A stretch of DNA of 45,915 nt, taken from assembly GCA_030066155.1 (NCBI GenBank), contig JASJCE010000016.1:1-45915 (forward strand). The letters are read 5' to 3'. The position numbers were made by a program, and so were the translations under genes. The first letter of the stretch is position 1, and each line of letters starts with the position of its first letter. Under the pieces are notes generated by a model that saw only the letters and a list, made by a program, of their open reading frames with translations, did no database searches and was not told where the DNA came from. This stretch comes from Desulfobacterales bacterium. GTDB taxonomy: Bacteria > Desulfobacterota > Desulfobacteria > Desulfobacterales > JAFDCJ01. Positions 5,190-45,915 of this stretch are shown one piece after another.

Positions 5190-5231
5190 ATTGGACGTTC
5201 GACGTTGAATGTTGGACGTTGGACGTTCGTC
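5190..5231. repeat. Heptamer tract, consensus GTTGGAC, 6 units
   Basis: Six consecutive 7-base units (GTTGGAC twice, with GTTCGAC, GTTGAAT, GTTCGTC and ATTGGAC) abut the hairpin core that begins at 5231. Confidence 0.85.
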
Positions 5232-5290
5232 AGTTTCTTTTTCGATCAGACTGGCCGATTTTTGGCCAGAGGCGCCGCTCTTATGAAACT
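5231..5290 (-). repeat. Hairpin core CTGGCC-loop-GGCCAG, third copy
   Basis: Read on the minus strand this is GTTTCATAAGAGCGGCGCC, then CTGGCC-AAAAATC-GGCCAG and a GTCTGATC segment. It is bounded by AGTTTC (5232-5237) and GAAACT (5285-5290), which are inverted copies of each other. The same core starts the longer elements at 17411 and 43961. Confidence 0.7.
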
Positions 5291-13622: not shown

Positions 13623-13642
13623 AATTGTCCTTTGTGGTAAAA

Positions 13643-13698
13643 ATCTGTCCTCTGTCATCTGACTTCTGTCATCTGTCATCCGTCATCAGTCTTCCGAT
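13643..13698. repeat. Heptamer tract, consensus ATCTGTC, 8 units
   Basis: Eight consecutive 7-base units lie 20 bases upstream of the moaB start; translated in the moaB frame they give MTDDRSQMTEDR. A closely related tract is at 14832-14901 and a shorter one at 26861-26888. Confidence 0.88.
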
Positions 13699-13899
13699 CA
13701 ACGATCATTACATCATTACCCGCCATAAGATCAACTTCAATGTCCAAAGGAGTTCGCTTGGCGTATCAACAATTCTGAATTAACCTTGATTTTAAACCCT
13801 AATTTTCTTATGTTCTTTTAAGTTAACTATTCGACTGAATTGATGATATTAATTCAAATAGGTCCGAGGCGACAGTACGTTACATAAGAAAATTAGAAT

Positions 13900-14520
13900 A
13901 TGCCCCATCCCTGTACCGGCGTGATATTGTCCGGCGGTTTGAGCACCCGCTTTAACGGCCGCAACAAAGCTTTGATCGAAATCGGCGGAAACCGCATTCT
14001 GGATCGCCTGTATTCGATTTTTTCGGAATTGTTTGATGAGATCATTCTGGTAACGAACGATCCTCTGAAGTTCATCAGATGGGATCTGATGGTCGTCACG
14101 GATATTTTCCCGGCTCGAAGCTCTTTGACGGGAATTCATGCCGGTCTGTTCTATATGAAAAATCCATTTGCTTTTTTTTCGGCCTGCGACACCCCGTTTC
14201 TGAAAAAAGAGCTTGTCACCTCACTTCTCGAAAAAATTGAACCGGGTCAGGACATTGTCATGCCCGAGACAACGGCCGGCATGGAGCCGCTGTGTGCTGT
14301 TTATTCCAAACGCTGTTTGAACACGGCGGCAAATCACATCCGGCAGGACAAGTTTAAAATACAGCTGGCATTGCGAAGTCATCGCTTAAAAAAAATACCG
14401 GAATCCCTTCTGCGAAAGGCGGACCCGGAACTCGTATCCTTTTTTAACATCAACACGCCGGAAGATCTGGAGAAGGCGCAACAGATGGCAGCGGCAGAGA
14501 GCATAGAGCATGGAGCGTAG
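13900..14520 (+). CDS. mobA: Molybdenum cofactor guanylyltransferase MobA
   Basis: MobA transfers GMP from GTP to molybdopterin, giving the dinucleotide cofactor used by, for example, formate dehydrogenases. The 206-residue protein has the nucleotidyltransferase signature GVILSGGLSTRFNGRNKAL (7-25) with Lys23, the metal-binding CDTPF (96-100) and the closing FNINTPEDLEKA. AORs use bis-molybdopterin without the nucleotide, so this gene points to other Mo/W enzymes in the cell. The last nine codons lie inside the heptamer tract at 14494-14605, giving a C-terminus (AESIEHGA) that is repeat-derived rather than conserved. The ribosome binding site is weak. Confidence 0.9.
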   Translation: MPHPCTGVILSGGLSTRFNGRNKALIEIGGNRILDRLYSIFSELFDEIILVTNDPLKFIRWDLMVVTDIFPARSSLTGIHAGLFYMKNPFAFFSACDTPFLKKELVTSLLEKIEPGQDIVMPETTAGMEPLCAVYSKRCLNTAANHIRQDKFKIQLALRSHRLKKIPESLLRKADPELVSFFNINTPEDLEKAQQMAAAESIEHGA

Positions 14521-14605
14521 GGCAGAGAGCATAGAGCAAAGGGCAAAGGGCATGGAGCAGGGAGCAGGGAGCAGGGGGCAGAGGGCGGAGAGCAAAGGGC
14601 AGGGT
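14494..14605. repeat. Heptamer tract, consensus GCANAGN, 16 units, overlapping the end of mobA
   Basis: Sixteen consecutive 7-base units of the GCAGGGA, GCAAAGG and GCATAGA type run without a break from inside the last codons of mobA into the intergenic region. The mobA stop codon lies in the fourth unit. Confidence 0.92.
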
Positions 14606-14632
14606 CAAGAAGTTATAGATCATGGAACAGAA

Positions 14633-14674
14633 AGTATAAGGTATAAGGTGTAGGGTCTAAGGTGTAAGGCATAG
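14633..14674. repeat. Heptamer tract, consensus GGTNTAA, 6 units
   Basis: Six consecutive 7-base units (AGTATAA, GGTATAA, GGTGTAG, GGTCTAA, GGTGTAA, GGCATAG) lie between mobA and moaE. Confidence 0.85.
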
Positions 14675-14831
14675 GATCGAAGAAAAAGGCGTTCGGCATT
14701 CGGCGCACGAGGCACACCATATTGGCCGTAGGATAGATGTTTCATACCGCTGCAGCGTTGGCGTTCGGATGAAAATACGCTCGGACGGGGAAAACCAAAA
14801 ACCAATGACAAATAACAAATAACGACTTTCG

Positions 14832-14901
14832 TTCTGTCTTCTGTTATCTGTCATCTGACTTCTGTCATCTGTTCTCTGTCAATTGACTTCGGCCTTCTGG
14901 C
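14832..14901. repeat. Heptamer tract, consensus (A/T)TCTGTC, 10 units
   Basis: Ten consecutive 7-base units end 19 bases before the moaE start codon. The consensus is that of the tracts at 13643-13698 and 26861-26888. Confidence 0.88.
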
Positions 14902-14920
14902 AACCAAAGGTAGCGCAATA

Positions 14921-15892: not shown

Positions 15893-15934
15893 GTGGCTAT
15901 AAATTTTTTTAAAAAAGGCTATTCTCAAAAATGA
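15893..15934 (+). CDS. Possible 13-residue leader peptide overlapping mltA
   Basis: A GTG with a strong GGGAGGATAAATTC ribosome binding site opens a short frame encoding MAINFFKKGYSQK, whose TGA overlaps the mltA ATG as ATGA. mltA itself has no comparable ribosome binding site, so reinitiation from this mini-frame could drive its translation. It could also be the remnant of an older mltA start, since a T7A6 run in it would allow slippage. No homologue is claimed. Confidence 0.3.
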   Translation: MAINFFKKGYSQK

Positions 15935-17148
15935 TTTTAAGAAGCAGAACGTATATTGCTCTCGCATTCGTCATTACCGGGTTGTTTGCGATATGGCTTT
16001 CCAGCTGCGTTCAGCCCACCAAACCGCCGGCTGAAAGCACGGTAATGGAGCGGGTTTCATCCGATTCCCTGCCCGTGTTCGTCGATGACATGAACTATGA
16101 CGGCCTCGAGCACGGCATCACCATGAGCCTGTCATATCTTGAGAAAATTCCGGTCGACCGCTTGTTTGTTTTTGGTGAGGAGACCTACACCACGGAGCAC
16201 CTGATCCGGTCGCTGCGGTTTTTTCTCGATTTTGTTCAAAACCGGCCGGATGCAGATCAGCTGAAACGATTTATCCGCTCCAACTATCTGGTGTACCGCT
16301 CCCTGGGCAGAGACGGCAACGGTGAAGTTTTGTATACCGGTTATTACGAGCCTCATCTGCGGGGCAGCCTGATACAGACCGAAGACTACCGCTACCCGAT
16401 TTACGCCCGACCGCATGATTTAATTCAGATCGACCTGTCGCTTTTCAAAGAAAAATACGCCGGCCAAACGATCATCGCCCGGTATTCTAATCATCAGGTA
16501 CTGCCCTACTACGATCGTAAAGAGATCGAATCGGACGGGGCTCTGAACGGCAGAGCGGAGGTGCTGGTTTGGGTCAGAGATCCCGTTGACGTCTTTTTTC
16601 TCCAAATTCAGGGATCCGGAAAGGTATATCTAGACAACGGCGATGTGTTGAACGTCCACTACCACACATCCAACGGGCGCCCGTACCGCAGCATTGGAAA
16701 GCTATTGATCGATCAGGGAAAAATATCAGTGGACGAAATGTCCATGCAGAAAATTCGCGAATATTTGAACACGCATCCGGATGAAATGATGGACGTCTTT
16801 AACTACAATCCCAGCTATGTTTTTTTTCAAATCGAGCCCGATGGGCCGCTGGGTAATATCAATGTCAAATTGACTCCGGGTCGTTCGATCGCGCTGGATC
16901 GTCGTATATTCCCCAAATCCGCGCTTTGCTTTATTGAAGCCGAAAAACCGGTCATTGACGGCTTTGGCAATATTCAAGCGTGGCAGCGTTTCAGCCGTTT
17001 TGCTCTGAATCAGGATACCGGCGGTGCCATCCGGGGTCCGGGACGTGCGGATATTTTCTGGGGAAACGGTCCCTACGCTGAAATCGCCGCCGGGCATCTC
17101 AAGCATCGGGGATTTTTATACTTTTTGATTCTAAAACCGGTATCTTGA
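15931..17148 (+). CDS. mltA: Membrane-bound lytic murein transglycosylase MltA
   Basis: MltA cleaves peptidoglycan glycan strands to 1,6-anhydromuropeptides at the inner face of the outer membrane. The 405-residue protein begins with a lipoprotein signal peptide (ALAFVITGLFAIWLSSC, lipidated Cys26), has the MltA domain (RDPVDVFFLQIQGSGKVYL about 207-225) and ends in the 3D domain DTGGAIRGPGRADIFWGNG, with Asp362 and Asp374 as catalytic-type aspartates. The length is normal. It follows moaC by 68 bases on the same strand, with a mini-frame in between. It is followed by a long non-coding region containing a repeat element. Confidence 0.92.
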   Translation: MILRSRTYIALAFVITGLFAIWLSSCVQPTKPPAESTVMERVSSDSLPVFVDDMNYDGLEHGITMSLSYLEKIPVDRLFVFGEETYTTEHLIRSLRFFLDFVQNRPDADQLKRFIRSNYLVYRSLGRDGNGEVLYTGYYEPHLRGSLIQTEDYRYPIYARPHDLIQIDLSLFKEKYAGQTIIARYSNHQVLPYYDRKEIESDGALNGRAEVLVWVRDPVDVFFLQIQGSGKVYLDNGDVLNVHYHTSNGRPYRSIGKLLIDQGKISVDEMSMQKIREYLNTHPDEMMDVFNYNPSYVFFQIEPDGPLGNINVKLTPGRSIALDRRIFPKSALCFIEAEKPVIDGFGNIQAWQRFSRFALNQDTGGAIRGPGRADIFWGNGPYAEIAAGHLKHRGFLYFLILKPVS

Positions 17149-17410: not shown

Positions 17411-17776
17411 AGCGTCGCCTCTGGCCAAAAAAACGGCCGGTCTGATCAAATAAAAAACTGTAGAATTTTAATGAAAAAGAGGAATGGATTCTGATTTTAG
17501 AAAAAATAATTGGACAGGACCCGCCTGCCATGCGAGAAAAACCGACCCATAGAACAACTATACACCTATGTCTCAGTCTCGCAAAAAATTAGGCAATGCG
17601 TAAAGGCATGAGCGGGCAGGTCAACAGGATCATTAGGATAACGCGGCCTTCGGCCGAAAGGCCCCTCGCCGCAGGCGAAAAAATGTCCTGATAATCCCTT
17701 AAATCCTGTCTAAATAAAAATAATTAAAATCGAATCCATTCCACATCCCTTCATTTATTTGAAGTTTCTCACGAGG
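17411..17776 (+). repeat. Palindromic intergenic element, copy A (interrupted)
   Basis: The layout is: hairpin core TGGCC-loop-GGCCG (17421-17440), inverted 11-mers GGAATGGATTC (17481-17491) and GAATCCATTCC (17732-17742), inner inverted ACAGGATCATTAGGATAA and TTATC-type arms, a 41-base double-hairpin centre (17643-17683) identical to copy B, and the end GAAGTTTCTCACGAGG. It differs from copy B mainly by an extra 102 bases (17520-17621). Confidence 0.85.
17520..17621. other. 102-base insertion inside repeat element copy A
   Basis: Compared with copy B, about 102 extra bases interrupt the left arm. The segment begins with CCTGCCATGC and ends with an imperfect inverse (GCAT, then GGGCAGG), so it looks like a small hairpin-ended unit that moved into the element. 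No coding potential is seen, and the boundaries are uncertain by a few bases. Confidence 0.55.
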
Positions 17777-20076: not shown

Positions 20077-20919
20077 TCAACCGCTTTTCCGTAAAACCAC
20101 CCCCGACCATCCCAGCTCGCCGGCGGCCCACCGCTTTTGAAACTGTGCTTCTCGATAACAATTGATCAAGTCCTCACGCTCGTGATCCCGGATACCGGAT
20201 AGCACCAAAAAACCGCCTGCCTCTGTTATTTCTCTTATTTTATATCGCATTCGCTTCAACGTCGGATAGCGAAGGTTGGCCAGTATAATTGAATATTGCC
20301 CCGAGATATCATCAAATGATTGTCCGGAAATAACAATCCGATTTCCGAGTCCGTTGATGTTTACATTCCCGGCAGCCTCGGCCCGGGCGCAGGCATCGAT
20401 ATCGACGCCCAACCCCGTTTTACATCCACCAAGGACAGCGCTGATGAGCAATACTCCCGATCCGGTTCCGATATCCAGAACCGTTGGGGCGTCTCCAGCG
20501 GTTAAAGCGGTATTGTCAAATAGCACGAAATCAATACCTTCAATCGCCAGACGGGTGGTCGGATGATTGCCCGCGCCGAAAGCGGCGCCGGACTGGATCC
20601 GAACGACCACGTCACCCGGAGCAGAATGTGCCTGAAACCCGGGCGGTTGCAGCACGAAATGCTTGGAAATGCGAACTGGTTTTGCAAAAGACCGCTCCAG
20701 AAATGTACTGCCGTATTCGTAGGTATAGGTCAGATCGCCCGACGTAACCAAATCCCTGATAACCGATTTAATTTGCTTTCGGTTTAAACCAAAACCATCC
20801 CCCAATATCTTCTCAAGAACAGGTGGTGTAATCCGGGTCCGGGACTCAGCAACAGTTCGAAGCGCATAATCCCGTATGGCCGCAACATCGTGCGCAAAAT
20901 CTATGGAATCTAGTTTCAT
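20077..20919 (-). CDS. PrmA-type methyltransferase with an N-terminal DsrD-like winged helix
   Basis: This is an S-adenosylmethionine-dependent methyltransferase of the ribosomal protein L11/ETF-beta lysine methyltransferase family, 280 residues. The catalytic half has GAAFGAGNHPTTRL (111-124), the SAM motif VLDIGTGSG (147-155) and ILANLRYPTL in the place of the substrate motif. Residues about 15-78 form a winged helix, and its end (RKQIKSVIRDLVTSGDLTY, then GSTFLER) resembles the matching part of DsrD encoded two genes upstream. The start overlaps the dsrN stop as ATGA, so it is translated with the dsr cluster. Its substrate is unknown; a dsr-linked protein is a reasonable guess rather than L11 itself. 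Confidence 0.82.
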   Translation of the reverse strand: MKLDSIDFAHDVAAIRDYALRTVAESRTRITPPVLEKILGDGFGLNRKQIKSVIRDLVTSGDLTYTYEYGSTFLERSFAKPVRISKHFVLQPPGFQAHSAPGDVVVRIQSGAAFGAGNHPTTRLAIEGIDFVLFDNTALTAGDAPTVLDIGTGSGVLLISAVLGGCKTGLGVDIDACARAEAAGNVNINGLGNRIVISGQSFDDISGQYSIILANLRYPTLKRMRYKIREITEAGGFLVLSGIRDHEREDLINCYREAQFQKRWAAGELGWSGVVLRKSG

Positions 20920-22544
20920 TTCCTATTATATTTGATTGCATTGCGGACGAGGGCAGGCGCCCAACCGGGAGTGCCGAGGGCATGTATATGGGTATAGGTT
21001 GCCAGAACATTTTTATACAGAATGCCGTCCCGGTCGGATTCAATTCCAGCACCCCGCTTCATGCGAAAGACCAGCTGACTTCGGTTTCCGTCCCATTGCG
21101 ACACCCGTGAATAGTGAAATTCATGTCCCCTGATTTCAGTCCCAACCTCATAATAGGGATTTTCCACGGCAACTTCGACAATGGTGTATCCATGTCCCTG
21201 GGGCCGTTTGTAAAAATCAAATGTCACGGGAAGAATACCGACCATGGGATAGGATCGGTTGTCCAGCACCAGCTGCTCCCCGAGATACATCAGGCCGCCG
21301 CACTCGGCATAAATCGGAAAACCGTTCTCTGCCAGGGATTTGAGTTGAGAATTGAACTTTTTATTGAGTGCCAGCTTTTCGGCGTGTGTCTCCGGGAAGC
21401 CGCCGCCGATGTAAAGTGCGTCCAAATTCGGCAGAGCAGCGTCTTTCAGCGGGCTGACATAAACAATTTCAGCACCCTGTTTGGCAAGTGCATCAATATT
21501 TTCAGGATAATAAAACTGAAACGCCGAATCTCGGATTATACCAACTCTAACCTTAGGCTTTTCGATACTGGATGCCGGATGCTGGATGCTGGATGCTGGA
21601 TGCTCGATACTGGATGCTCGATGCTCGATGCTCGATGCTGGATGCTCGATACTGGATGCTGGATGCTGGATACTCGATGCTGGATTCTGGATGATGGATT
21701 CCGGATCGCGGATAGAAACAGTTTGTTTTAGGTCATCGTTCTCCGCATCCCGATTTTCGGATGCTGCGGCCTCGATCTCAAATTCCGACTTCCGCATTCC
21801 GACTTCCGACTTCTCTTTTCTGCCCCCTGTCTCCAACTCGGGCGCGTTCGCGGCGATGGTCATCAGTGCATCAAAGTCAATGTGCTGTTCGGCAATCCGG
21901 GTGATGGCCTCGATTGAACTGTTGGCCCAGTCGTGCTCGGGTGTCGGTACCAGGCCCAAATGACGCTCGGGAAAATGCTGCTCGCTCAGTTTCGGAACTG
22001 CGCCGATAACCGGCATAGAGCAATAGTGCTCGATGCTGTCACGCAGTTTCTTTTCATGCCGGCTGTTGGCCACCCGGTTCAAAATGACGCCATTTATCAT
22101 CACATCCGAATCAAATTGTGAACACCCCGCCACTACGGCTGCCATGGTCCGGGTAATTTTGGTGCAGTCGACGCATAACACGACCGGACACCGGATCAAT
22201 TTGGCCAGCTCGGCCGTGCTGGTGCTGCCTTCAAGATCGATGCCGTCGTATAAACCGCGGTTGCCTTCAATCACGGAAATGTCGCTATCAATTGAATGGG
22301 TTAGAAATGATTGCAGATTATCGGATTGACTCAACAGGAAGGAATCCAGATTATAGCAGGGCCGGCCGGCCGCAAGGGCCAACCAGCCTGCATCGATGTA
22401 ATCCGGACCTTTTTTGAAAGCCGCAACGGTTTTGCCGCGCCGGCTTAATGCAGCGATGATTCCAATCGATAAAATGGTCTTTCCCGATCCGCCCCGCAGA
22501 GCGGCGATAATGATTCTGGGAAATTCCGTTCCATCTGACTGCAT
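20916..22544 (-). CDS. dsrN: Siroheme amidase DsrN (cobyrinate a,c-diamide synthase family) with repeat insert
   Basis: DsrN amidates siroheme, the prosthetic group of dissimilatory sulfite reductase, using glutamine and ATP. The 542-residue protein has an N-terminal P-loop synthetase domain (ALRGGSGKT, 15-23; KKGPDYIDAGW) and a C-terminal class I glutamine amidotransferase-like domain with Cys415 in YAECGGLMYLG and HEFHYS. Between them, about residues 240-330, lies a foreign-looking linker made of translated 7-base repeats (SSIEHPA units). Without it the length would be near 450, normal for CobB/CbiA. The gene follows dsrD and is coupled to the methyltransferase gene. The context after dsrABD favours DsrN over a cobalamin enzyme. 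Confidence 0.88.
   Translation of the reverse strand: MQSDGTEFPRIIIAALRGGSGKTILSIGIIAALSRRGKTVAAFKKGPDYIDAGWLALAAGRPCYNLDSFLLSQSDNLQSFLTHSIDSDISVIEGNRGLYDGIDLEGSTSTAELAKLIRCPVVLCVDCTKITRTMAAVVAGCSQFDSDVMINGVILNRVANSRHEKKLRDSIEHYCSMPVIGAVPKLSEQHFPERHLGLVPTPEHDWANSSIEAITRIAEQHIDFDALMTIAANAPELETGGRKEKSEVGMRKSEFEIEAAASENRDAENDDLKQTVSIRDPESIIQNPASSIQHPASSIEHPASSIEHRASSIEHPASSIQHPASSIEKPKVRVGIIRDSAFQFYYPENIDALAKQGAEIVYVSPLKDAALPNLDALYIGGGFPETHAEKLALNKKFNSQLKSLAENGFPIYAECGGLMYLGEQLVLDNRSYPMVGILPVTFDFYKRPQGHGYTIVEVAVENPYYEVGTEIRGHEFHYSRVSQWDGNRSQLVFRMKRGAGIESDRDGILYKNVLATYTHIHALGTPGWAPALVRNAIKYNRK
21562..21715. repeat. Heptamer tract, consensus T(G/C)GATGC, 22 units inside dsrN
   Basis: Twenty-two consecutive 7-base units without a break (154 bases) encode residues about 277-328 of DsrN on the minus strand. 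Because 3 x 7 = 21, the protein shows a 7-residue repeat (SSIEHPA, SSIQHPA). It is the longest tract in the window. Confidence 0.95.
21781..21815. repeat. Heptamer tract, consensus ACTTCCG, 5 units inside dsrN
   Basis: Five 7-base units (ACTTCCG and CATTCCG variants) encode a short charged piece of the DsrN linker, about residues 244-255. Confidence 0.8.
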
Positions 22545-42383: not shown

Positions 42384-43952
42384 ATGGCCGAAATGCCCTG
42401 CAATCCCCGGATCCTGGTCGTAACCCCGGAGGTCACCTATTTGCCCCATCGTATGGGGGGATTAGCCTCTTTTTATACGGCCAAAGCCGGAGGTCTGGCT
42501 GATGTGTCGGCCGCATTAATCAGCAGTCTGTTCAAACAGGGGGCCGATGTCCATATGGCCATGCCGGACTATCGCTCTTTATTTCGGGATAAACTCGCCC
42601 CGGTTCTAAAAAAAGAAATCAACCGGGTTCAACGCAAAATGCCTGACGACCGGGTACATCTGGCTGAAGATCGTGCGTTTTACTATACCAATCGGGTCTA
42701 CTCCCTGTATGGAGAGGAAAACATCAAGCTGTCACTGGCTTTCCAGCGGGAAGTCATCAATAATATCGTGCCGCGGGTCCAACCTGACCTGATCCACTGC
42801 AACGATTGGATGACGGGGCTTATCCCGGCCATGGCCCGGGAGCTGGATATCCCCTGTCTCTTCACCATCCACAATGTTCACACGGTTAAAACGTCCCTGG
42901 CGGCAATTGAAGACAGGGGCATCGACGGTGCATCGTTCTGGCAGAATTTATATTTTGACAACATGGCGACTAACTATGAACAGAGCCGCGACCACAATCC
43001 GGTGGATCTGTTGACCAGTGGAATATTCGCTGCTCACTTTGTCAACGTCGTCAGCCCGACATTTTTGACTGAAATCGTAAACGGCGTACACCCGTTTATT
43101 GAAGCGCCGATCCGCCGGGAGTTGACCCATAAGGTCGACGCCGATTGTGCAGCCGGAATCCTGAACGCTCCCGACCCATCCTTTGACCCCCAAAATGACA
43201 AAGATCTGGTCAGAGAATACGGCCCGGACGACCATATTAACGGAAAAAAAGAAAACAAACGCTACCTCCAGCAGAAGCTGGGGTTGATCCAGGATGATCG
43301 CGCACCGGTCTTCTTCTGGCCTTCCCGCCTGGATCCCGTTCAGAAGGGGTGCCAGCTGCTGGCTGATATTTTCTACGATGTCATTTCCAATTACTGGCAG
43401 CAGAACCTGCAGGTCGTGTTTGTTGCCAACGGCGATTACAAAATGGTGTTCAGGGATATCGTCAACCACCACGGCTTTCACCAGCGCGTGGCGATATGCG
43501 ACTTCAGCAACGAACTTGAACATCTCTGCTACGGTGCATCGGACTTTATGCTGATGCCATCCCGCTTTGAACCCTGCGGGTTGCCGCAAATGATTGCACC
43601 CATCTACGGTTCCCTCCCGATCGCCCATGATACCGGCGGTATCCATGACACAATTGTGCACCTGGATGCGGAGCAGAACACCGGAAACGGTTTTCTATTT
43701 AAGACCTTCGACGCCAACGGTCTGAAATGGGCCATTAACCAGGCCATGGCCTTTTACAATATGCCCGGAAAAACCAGGACACTGCAAATAAAGCGCATCA
43801 TGCAGAAAAGTGCGGCAACATTTACGCATGCCAATACAGCGACACAGTACATTAAACTGTATGAGAAAATGCTTAAGCGTCCACTGGTCGACCAGAATCT
43901 GGACCCGGTCTGTGTTGATGAATCCATTGAAGAGAAGACAAATAACACCTGA
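42384..43952 (+). CDS. glgA: Glycogen synthase (GT5 family)
   Basis: The enzyme elongates alpha-1,4-glucan chains from a nucleotide sugar. The 522-residue protein has a GT-B fold with the N-terminal loop AKAGGLADVSAAL (33-45, Lys34), HCNDWMTGLIPAMA, and the C-terminal SRFEPCGLPQMIAPIYGSLP with Glu396. Compared with E. coli-type GlgA it has about a dozen extra residues before the K-x-G-G-L loop (TYLPHRMGGLASFY). Whether it uses ADP-glucose or UDP-glucose cannot be decided from the sequence; no glgC lies in the window, whereas a UDP-glucose pyrophosphorylase does. The ribosome binding site is AAAGGCAAAGG. Confidence 0.92.
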   Translation: MAEMPCNPRILVVTPEVTYLPHRMGGLASFYTAKAGGLADVSAALISSLFKQGADVHMAMPDYRSLFRDKLAPVLKKEINRVQRKMPDDRVHLAEDRAFYYTNRVYSLYGEENIKLSLAFQREVINNIVPRVQPDLIHCNDWMTGLIPAMARELDIPCLFTIHNVHTVKTSLAAIEDRGIDGASFWQNLYFDNMATNYEQSRDHNPVDLLTSGIFAAHFVNVVSPTFLTEIVNGVHPFIEAPIRRELTHKVDADCAAGILNAPDPSFDPQNDKDLVREYGPDDHINGKKENKRYLQQKLGLIQDDRAPVFFWPSRLDPVQKGCQLLADIFYDVISNYWQQNLQVVFVANGDYKMVFRDIVNHHGFHQRVAICDFSNELEHLCYGASDFMLMPSRFEPCGLPQMIAPIYGSLPIAHDTGGIHDTIVHLDAEQNTGNGFLFKTFDANGLKWAINQAMAFYNMPGKTRTLQIKRIMQKSAATFTHANTATQYIKLYEKMLKRPLVDQNLDPVCVDESIEEKTNNT

Positions 43953-43960
43953 TTTTTCGC

Positions 43961-44228
43961 AAGAGCGGCGCTTCTGGCCAAAAAAAAAGCCAGTATGATC
44001 TATGAAGAAACTCTAAATTTCGAAAGAAAAAGAGGAATGGATTCTTATCTTAAAGAAAAATATTGGACAGGATCGACAGGATCATTTGGATAATGCGGCC
44101 TTCGGCCGAAAGGCCCCTCGCCGCAGGCGAAAAAAATCCTGATAATCCTGTAGATCCTGTCTAAATTTACATAATAAAAATCGAATCCATTCCACAATCC
44201 TTTCATCTTTTTGAAGTTTCATAAGAGC
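43961..44228 (+). repeat. Palindromic intergenic element, copy B
   Basis: The 268-base element fills the gap between glgA and glgB. It has the hairpin core CTGGC-loop-GCCAG (43974-43993), inverted 11-mers GGAATGGATTC (44034-44044) and GAATCCATTCC (44183-44193), inner inverted GACAGGATC arms, a 41-base double-hairpin centre (44095-44135) identical to copy A, and an end GAAGTTTCATAAGAGC (44213-44228). No coding sequence is present. Confidence 0.88.
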
Positions 44229-44244
44229 ACATCAATTTATAATC

Positions 44245-45915
44245 ATGTCATCCGCCTCGAATCATACACAAAACGACGAGCCGGACAAAAAAGCCATGGA
44301 TCCACTGGATCAGGCCCTGCAACATGACCCCGGCCTGAAACCCTTTCGCAAAATCATTTCCAAACGCCTTGCCAAAATTGAAACGGTAATGTCCGGCCTG
44401 ACGGCAAACCAGATCAGTCTGTCCGATTTTGCTTCCGGACATGAATTTTTCGGACTTCATTTTCGGGACAATAGCTGGGTTCTGCGGGAATGGGCCCCCA
44501 ATGCGGAGCACATTTTCCTGATCGGGGATATGACAGACTGGCAGGAAAAAGAATCCTTTGCGTTTCAGCATCGGGATCGGGAAAACGTCTGGGAAATCCG
44601 CCTGCCGGCCGATAAAATGAAGCACCAGGACCTGTATCGGCTTCGCATCCACTGGCCCGGTGGAGCGGGAGATCGCATCCCGGCCTATGCCCGGCGGGTC
44701 GTTCAGGACCCGCGAACGAAGATATTTAACGCTCAGGTCTGGAATCCCCCATCCGTTTATAAATGGATTTGTCCTGATTTTCGTTGCCCGCCAGAGGCCC
44801 CATTGATTTATGAGGCTCATATCGGGATGGCCCAGGACAAAGAGGGCATCGGTTCCTATCAGGAATTTACCCGGCATGTTTTGCCCCGGATCGCAGCATC
44901 CGGCTACAACGCCATCCAGTTGATGGCCGTTCAAGAACACCCGTACTACGGATCTTTCGGCTATCAGGTTTCCAATTTTTTTGCCGCATCATCCCGTTTC
45001 GGAACACCGGATGATTTGAAACAGTTAGTCGATAAAGCCCATTTATCGGGCCTGTCCGTACTGATGGACATCGTTCATTCCCATGCCGTATCCAATGAAA
45101 ATGAGGGTCTAAGCCGATTTGACGGCACTCTCTATCAATATTTTCACAACGGCGAGCGTGGATTGCATCCCCTCTGGGACTCCCGCTGTTTTGATTACGG
45201 CAAATATCAGGTCCTGCATTTTTTACTTTCCAACTGCCGCTTCTGGCTGGATGAGTACCGTTTCGACGGCTTTCGCTTCGACGGTATTACCTCCATGCTT
45301 TATCTGCATCATGGCATGAGCCGGGCATTTACATCCTACGACGACTACTTCGGGCCGGATGTTGATGAAGACGCTCTGACCTATCTGGCGCTCGCCAATC
45401 GGCTGATCCACGATCTGCGGCCGGATGCCATTACGATTGCCGAGGATGTCAGTGGCATGCCGGGATTGGCGGCCCCCCAAAAAAGGGGCGGCTACGGATT
45501 TAATTACCGCTTTGCCATGGGGGTACCCGATTACTGGATTAAATTAACCAAAGAAGTGGCCGATGAGCACTGGCCGGTGGGACATTTGTGGTATGAACTG
45601 ACCAATCGCCGCGCCGATGAAAGAACCATCAGTTACGCCGAGTCCCACGATCAGGCGCTGGTGGGGGATAAGTCTCTGATTTTTAGACTGATCGATGCCG
45701 TCATGTATGAACATATGGGGATCGACGACGATCATATTGCCGTCGACCGCGGCATGGCGTTGCACAAAATGATCCGTTTGATAACGCTGGCCACTGCCGG
45801 AGCAGGCTATTTGAATTTCATGGGCAATGAATTCGGACACCCGGAGTGGATCGATTTTCCGAGGGAAGGCAACAACTGGTCGTACAAACATGCCCGCCGC
45901 CAGTGGCATCTGGTG
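44245..45915 (+). CDS. glgB: 1,4-alpha-glucan branching enzyme, GH13_8 (eukaryote-like) type, 3' end outside window
   Basis: The enzyme introduces alpha-1,6 branches into glycogen. The frame is open for 557 codons and runs off the window, so the C-terminal beta domain is missing only because of the cut. Visible parts: a CBM48 domain (about 65-165, FFGLHFRDNSWVLREWAPNA), then the GH13 barrel with YEAHIGM, DIVHSHAVSN, nucleophile-type Asp346 (RFDGFRFDGITS), Glu400 (TIAEDVSG) and Asp469 (YAESHDQAL). The residue pattern around 215-350 is close to human and plant branching enzymes, not to E. coli GlgB. ATG at 44245 has no clear ribosome binding site; ATG at 44296 is an alternative. The start is 16 bases from repeat copy B. 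Confidence 0.92.
   Translation, partial: MSSASNHTQNDEPDKKAMDPLDQALQHDPGLKPFRKIISKRLAKIETVMSGLTANQISLSDFASGHEFFGLHFRDNSWVLREWAPNAEHIFLIGDMTDWQEKESFAFQHRDRENVWEIRLPADKMKHQDLYRLRIHWPGGAGDRIPAYARRVVQDPRTKIFNAQVWNPPSVYKWICPDFRCPPEAPLIYEAHIGMAQDKEGIGSYQEFTRHVLPRIAASGYNAIQLMAVQEHPYYGSFGYQVSNFFAASSRFGTPDDLKQLVDKAHLSGLSVLMDIVHSHAVSNENEGLSRFDGTLYQYFHNGERGLHPLWDSRCFDYGKYQVLHFLLSNCRFWLDEYRFDGFRFDGITSMLYLHHGMSRAFTSYDDYFGPDVDEDALTYLALANRLIHDLRPDAITIAEDVSGMPGLAAPQKRGGYGFNYRFAMGVPDYWIKLTKEVADEHWPVGHLWYELTNRRADERTISYAESHDQALVGDKSLIFRLIDAVMYEHMGIDDDHIAVDRGMALHKMIRLITLATAGAGYLNFMGNEFGHPEWIDFPREGNNWSYKHARRQWHLV

Follow-up and report, generated by a model that had tools for sequence, protein, structure and literature searches.

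The window analysed here, i.e., the 45,915-nt stretch of Desulfobacterales DNA as a whole (contig C166 of a 6.66-Mb genome in 543 contigs, 87% complete), holds two palindromes in intergenic positions: copy 1 lies between mltA (15931-17148) and tatA (17846), and copy 2 between glgA (42384-43952) and glgB (ATG at 44245), thus inside a likely operon. Each is nested (Table 1), displaying from the outside in (i) 11-nt inverted ends GGAATGGATTC, (ii) inverted triads of a 9-nt repeat ACAGGATC, and (iii) a GC double hairpin. A sequence-only reading had described a gene-less nested palindrome with inverted ends, inner arms, and an identical 41-nt centre in both copies. The ends and ACAGGAT arms were indeed found in both, with no gene within either; the shared centre is identical as claimed (0.00 matches expected from shuffles) but is 40 nt in length. 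The palindrome is shorter than the repeat, which on its left includes a linker starting at ~17411 and ~43962 and on its right reaches ~17776 and ~44227. Copy 1 is the longer because of a palindromic sub-insert of ~100 nt. As a single strand, whether RNA or DNA, the sequence folds into a long nested hairpin (z ~ -7 versus shuffles).

Table 1. Coordinates of the layers of both element copies, and of one solo linker, in the window.
Feature	Position	Strand	Remarks
Copy 1 linker hairpin H	17411..17457	+	
Copy 1 left inverted end	17481..17491	+	
Copy 1 first left-triad repeat GGACAGGA, parted from the rest by the sub-insert	17512..17519	+	
Copy 1 sub-insert A, palindrome CCCGCCTGCC..GCGGGCAGG at GGACAGGA^TCAACAGG	17520..17620	+	16 sites, R^TC, exact empty site
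Copy 1 left-triad remainder	17621..17639	+	
Copy 1 GC double-hairpin centre	17643..17682	+	Same as copy 2
Copy 1 right inverted end	17732..17742	+	
Copy 1 right tail ending AGTTTCTCACGAG	17743..17776	+	
Copy 2 linker hairpin H, AAGAG then CGGCGCTTCTGGCC-A9-GCCAGTATGATC..AGAAACT	43962..44012	+	Conserved left of palindrome; H core ~197 in genome
Copy 2 left inverted end GGAATGGATTC	44034..44044	+	Near-invariant in 43 aligned copies
Copy 2 left triad, 9-nt repeats GGACAGGATC GACAGGATC ATTTGGAT	44065..44091	+	Shell across phyla
Copy 2 GC double-hairpin centre	44095..44134	+	Identical in copy 1; genome matches
Copy 2 right inverted triad TCCTGATAATCCTGTAGATCCTGTC	44137..44161	+	Alignment
Copy 2 right inverted end GAATCCATTCC	44183..44193	+	Exact inverse; alignment
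Copy 2 right tail ending AGTTTCATAAGAG	44194..44227	+	Start of next H unit in tandem arrays
Solo linker H, then GAACGTCC-type cargo, without the GGAATGGATTC element	5230..5290	-	

Both window palindromes belong to a non-coding repeat of ~160 nt, with about 57-60 copies in the genome that are 86-97% identical. A genome search with a 207-nt query yielded 40 scored places resembling the full length, at 86-100% identity. The centre, with ≤3 mismatches allowed, gave 57 matches, and GAGGAATGGATTC, the left end, gave 58 exact ones; the same two patterns, reversed as a control, gave 0. The sequence-only reading had proposed a mobile, MITE-like repeat and had named a count of only two copies as the result that would speak against it, an objection which these numbers remove. 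Among copies with enough flank, an ORF heuristic places 44 of 46 in intergenic DNA, 32 of these 44 being located between co-directional genes, and both orientations occur. Several contigs terminate within the element, which is what an assembly-breaking repeat would produce. A single copy of ~94% identity (L169, G009:C17:3516-3712) is present in a genome from another family that has no further close copy, representing either a recent transfer or a binning error.

Across 43 aligned short-form copies, the layers follow a common order: (i) a linker hairpin H, an AT-rich spacer, GGAATGGATTC, and a second AT-rich spacer; (ii) the triad GGACAGGATC-AACAGGATC-ATTAGGAT, the GC double hairpin, and the inverted triad; and (iii) a spacer, GAATCCATTCC, and a tail ending in AGTTTCAYAYRAG. 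In this alignment the ends and centre are nearly invariant and the spacers variable, with the consensus of H reading AYRAG followed by CGCCGCCTCTGGCC-A7-GGCCAGTCTGATCGAAAAAGAAACT. The H core occurs at ~197 places in the genome, and the element is usually housed in this larger linker unit. In the fetched loci, a palindromic cargo comes after H and, in most cases, AGTTTCAYAYRAG after that, with units often standing head to tail. At least eight palindromic cargo families occur behind H in one orientation, the element being one of them; a further cargo (L037, L101, L113) is the palindrome GTGGGAGCGGTTTGTAACCGCG, which we take to be REP-like from its resemblance to Pseudomonas-type REPs. Such abundance of H in a single orientation, with varied cargos between the same junctions, would suit a cassette-like unit, in which H, palindromic cargo, and AGTTTCAYAYRAG move together and are spliced at a YAYRAG core by a site-specific recombinase. 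We consider this improbable, given that no integrase is linked, that left and right cores are often unequal (leaving no clean duplication or core exchange), and that some element copies (L043, L056, L060) are wholly devoid of H, which is therefore not obligatory. Comparison of left versus right unit cores as the source of a clean target-site duplication gave no consistent match. No gene that would mark an autonomous version was present inside the unit among 103 linker occurrences.

Evidence for mobility comes from relatives; in genomes of the same genus, the neighbourhood is collinear. The element is absent from the glgA-glgB spacer of six relatives (G001, G002, G003, G005, G007, G009), two of which (G002, G003) have other palindromes there instead, and from the mltA-tatA spacer of G005 (360 vs 697 nt). 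As the orthologous spacers lack the element, the insertions are lineage-specific, and the mobile character proposed for both window copies is supported. The flanks are too diverged (~77% identity in flanking genes) for the outer insertion junction to be placed to the base. Within the loci fetched from this genome, sub-insert A (CCCGCCTGCC..GCGGGCAGG, 98-101 nt) resides at 16 places in three host repeats, each time at R^TC; cutting it out in silico gives back the exact host repeat, without target duplication. Sub-insert B (TTTACCCCGTTAAAT..TTTAACTGGGG) is found at six places, always at TC^CTGAT. Two loci (L035, L059) have private variants in common, with sub-insert A present in one but not the other. 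At L194:6480-6895, a hairpin from the family of sub-insert B, CCCCGTTAAAT..ATTTAACTGGGG, breaks up a GxxExxY gene (see below). The two sub-inserts, the L035/L059 pair, and the L194 hairpin are base-exact signs of mobility.

At the RNA level, both copies had been proposed to join the 5' leaders of the downstream genes. For tatA this is plausible: a TTGACA-type promoter-like stretch, common to G005 and this genome, sits upstream of copy 1, which thus probably lengthens the tatA leader. For glgB, copy 2 is an intra-operon spacer that would put a strong hairpin into the transcript after glgA. Whether a host-selected RNA structure (a leader regulator, attenuator, or mRNA stabiliser) was copied to many operons can be weighed against the alignment. 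The strong fold (z ~ -7), the co-directional genes flanking 32 of 44 copies, and the location of copy 1 between the promoter-like site and tatA are all in line with such a role. However, not one compensatory base-pair change was found in the 43 aligned copies, no Rfam 15 family matched above its gathering score, copies occur in both orientations, and orthologous spacers do without them; we thus regard a selected RNA structure as very improbable. A consensus scan detected no terminator-like site. Since compensatory change is lacking, the symmetry is more likely a feature for DNA recognition than a selected RNA structure, and any regulatory effect of the copies would be a by-product.

A REP-type identity, as also put forward by the sequence-only reading, would imply a REP/BIME-type repeat spread by a RAYT (Y1 transposase) as mosaics of palindromic motifs. 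The head-to-tail intergenic mosaic arrays do recall BIMEs, and the genome encodes 12 Y1 (PF01797) genes (L068-L079), several of ~330 aa. Three of these (L075, L077, L078) are truncated, starting MPRKARIDAPGALHHII. Yet none of the 12 is adjoined by the centre or ends of the element, and the suggested search for a transposase or RAYT gene with matching ends found no RAYT-type gene flanked by it; other shells occur near two of the Y1 loci, and at one a linker lies some distance away. REPs are 20-40-nt hairpins with a GTAG/CGTC tag (the tag as defined in PMC3733652), and neither this size nor the tag was found in the 43 aligned copies; the size and long nested arms of the element are unlike such REPs. 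This origin is, in our view, a poor prospect. REP, BIME, and REPIN repeats with their RAYT (TnpA-REP) do resemble the present case in forming intergenic palindromic mosaics, and in that a small repeat-flanked gene spreads the repeat there, a parallel to GxxExxY here. They differ in that the arms of the element are longer and contain 9-nt triads, that the Y1 genes of this genome are not element-flanked, and that the candidate partner is a PD-(D/E)XK protein. Given the absence of compensatory change in the ends, of target duplication, and of any flanked RAYT-type gene, the element is MITE-like and not a REP/RAYT element.

The likeness to MITEs is apparent in the terminal inverted repeats (GGAATGGATTC), the short non-coding sequence, and the many intergenic copies, as well as in the derivation of relatives of the element by internal deletion from a coding element. 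Our main rival explanation is accordingly a classical MITE, i.e., an internally deleted DNA transposon with GGAATGGATTC ends, mobilised in trans by a DDE transposase, either lost or absent from the incomplete genome. The 11-nt inverted ends and the ~160-nt, non-coding, multicopy, intergenic form would be typical of it; we nevertheless judge it unlikely, albeit to be taken seriously. The target-site duplications looked for at the suggestion of the sequence-only reading were not found: none is consistent beside the ends or unit cores, and sub-inserts leave none. No gene-bearing version was seen among fetched copies or linker units, and among fetched loci no parental transposase has the same ends, with a GxxExxY parent seen only for the inner ACAGGAT shell. 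In other families that inner shell occurs devoid of the outer ends, which are thus not the sole mobile boundary. The element further departs from MITEs in its several nested shells, each reused elsewhere, and in having as candidate partner a nuclease and not a DDE transposase. ERIC/RU, Correia, and BOX-type modular repeats resemble it in being imperfectly palindromic, 100-300 nt long, and variable in which modules they contain; in our element, by contrast, the modules are themselves mobile and cross-phylum.

Reuse of the ACAGGAT shell points to such a partner. In same-genus genomes, GGAATGGATTC ends and ACAGGAT triads surround another centre (L124) or none (L125), while in other families of the order the triads occur without GGAATGGATTC ends (L127-L130). 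The pattern GACAGGATNNACAGGATNNTNNGGAT is present in at least 107 stretches of bacterial and archaeal genomes from many phyla (~2 by chance, by our own estimate) and in 5 stretches of viral contigs. At two Cloacimonadota loci (L240, L271), inverted ACAGGAT triads enclose an intact GxxExxY (PF13366) gene; these loci are on separate contigs and have nearly the same flank. Spirosoma arboris (L224) and G078 have a full ACAGGAT palindrome on either side of a GxxExxY gene, and in G109 single ACAGGAT arms flank one. Intact GxxExxY genes with ACAGGAT shells (L224, L240, L271, L316, L350) include those of two genomes of this order. In Desulfobacterales ACAGGAT elements, the first 11-19 codons of a GxxExxY gene are joined to its last ~20 (L214, L252), marking internal deletions of a gene-bearing parent; related elements are L228, L229, L257, and L277.

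This association extends to the family (TIGR04256, PF13366, PDDEXK_3) within the order, whose genes are enclosed by, or placed between, inverted arrays of the element's short-period class. In the order, 31 of 57 GxxExxY genes have inverted-repeat flanks that score >=40 and so count as strong, compared to 2 of 220 control windows set at displaced positions in these loci (Mann-Whitney p=1.9e-20). The arms are of CACGAAG, CACGGATT, CCGCAGAG, GCAGAC, or ACAGGAT type with an 8-10-nt period, and the D-x-ExK signature is kept in 48 of 58 GxxExxY ORFs. The element shares with the proposed class of GxxExxY-associated array elements the inverted triads of 8-10-nt period and GC hairpins, and has gene-bearing relatives with the same triad. 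The one GxxExxY gene of this genome is bordered at either end by inverted GCAGAC arrays and GC hairpins, and these arms recur gene-less at about eight places; being in a GCAGAC shell, it would act on the element in trans or be unrelated. Against a nuclease model count the lack of any PF13366 gene at E<=1e-10 in G001, G002, and G007 (ACAGGAT-rich, incomplete MAGs of the same genus), the fact that a GGAATGGATTC shell was never seen around a GxxExxY gene, and the scoring of only about half of GxxExxY genes as flanked. In the open-licence literature, we found no link of GxxExxY/PF13366 to repeats, nor a described function or mobility. The GxxExxY connection, the modular linker unit, and the sub-inserts had all escaped the sequence-only reading.

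We propose that a dispersed, non-autonomous mobile element, built as a nested palindrome, is what stands in two copies before tatA and glgB, and give this explanation as a whole, nuclease model included, an even chance of being correct. Each shell would descend from its own small element, with elements inserting preferentially into other palindromic repeats to give a Russian-doll arrangement. The ACAGGAT triad shell would be a MITE-like form, lacking the gene, of an element that when complete encodes the GxxExxY (PD-(D/E)XK, PF13366) nuclease. This nuclease would recognise and cut short-period inverted arrays, and spread would follow by repair from an element-bearing template in a homing-like manner, which would leave no target duplication. 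Near-invariant end arms and the lack of compensatory change fit with recognition of DNA ends and not with RNA pairing. On the sequence comparisons made here, the most economical reading would be a nested mobile repeat without a gene, the inner shell of which belongs to the GxxExxY-associated class and plausibly spreads by cutting at the arrays and templated repair; we infer GxxExxY as the mobilising agent.

The S23 (PF05635) family, taken as a control for small mobile genes, suggests a broader pattern. Where the period is clear, S23 flanks consist of 7-nt arrays at 11 of 13 loci and GxxExxY flanks of 9-10-nt arrays at 12 of 12 (Fisher p=2e-5, for a contrast drawn post hoc). By eye, most S23 genes of the genus (L397-L405) are bracketed by inverted heptad arrays, and the GxxExxY gene of G004 by CACAAAG-type arrays. 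More widely (L367-L405), S23/23S-IVP genes lie between inverted 7-nt arrays, with the heptad differing per locus; no paper linking S23 to heptad repeats was found in the open-licence literature. The window itself contains heptad tandem arrays (e.g., TCTGTCA, TGGATGC) at 13630-13708, 14493-14636, 14826-14918, and 21548-21729, in or near molybdenum-cofactor genes as well as within a long minus-strand ORF (20916-22544). A 119-aa ORF between window heptad repeats was considered as S23 and rejected, being MoaE-like. We tentatively put forward, at slightly less than an even chance, that there are two repeat classes with one protein each: 8-10-nt triads (ACAGGAT, CACGAAG, CCGCAGAG, and others) with GxxExxY, and heptads with the S23/23S-IVP four-helix-bundle protein. 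Together, an inverted array and a single small protein would constitute a new minimal selfish system, of which the element would be a nested gene-less derivative.

Repeats of this kind fill intergenic space and break assemblies in many uncultured genomes, and their nesting, with base-exact sub-inserts, is a readable record of successive insertions. In the tat and glycogen operons, they show a route by which long structured leaders or spacers arise. The tie to GxxExxY offers a specific candidate agent for cross-phylum repeats, as well as a possible role for a large uncharacterised family. If the two-class pairing is true, two ubiquitous, unexplained classes of prokaryotic intergenic repeats would gain dedicated protein partners.
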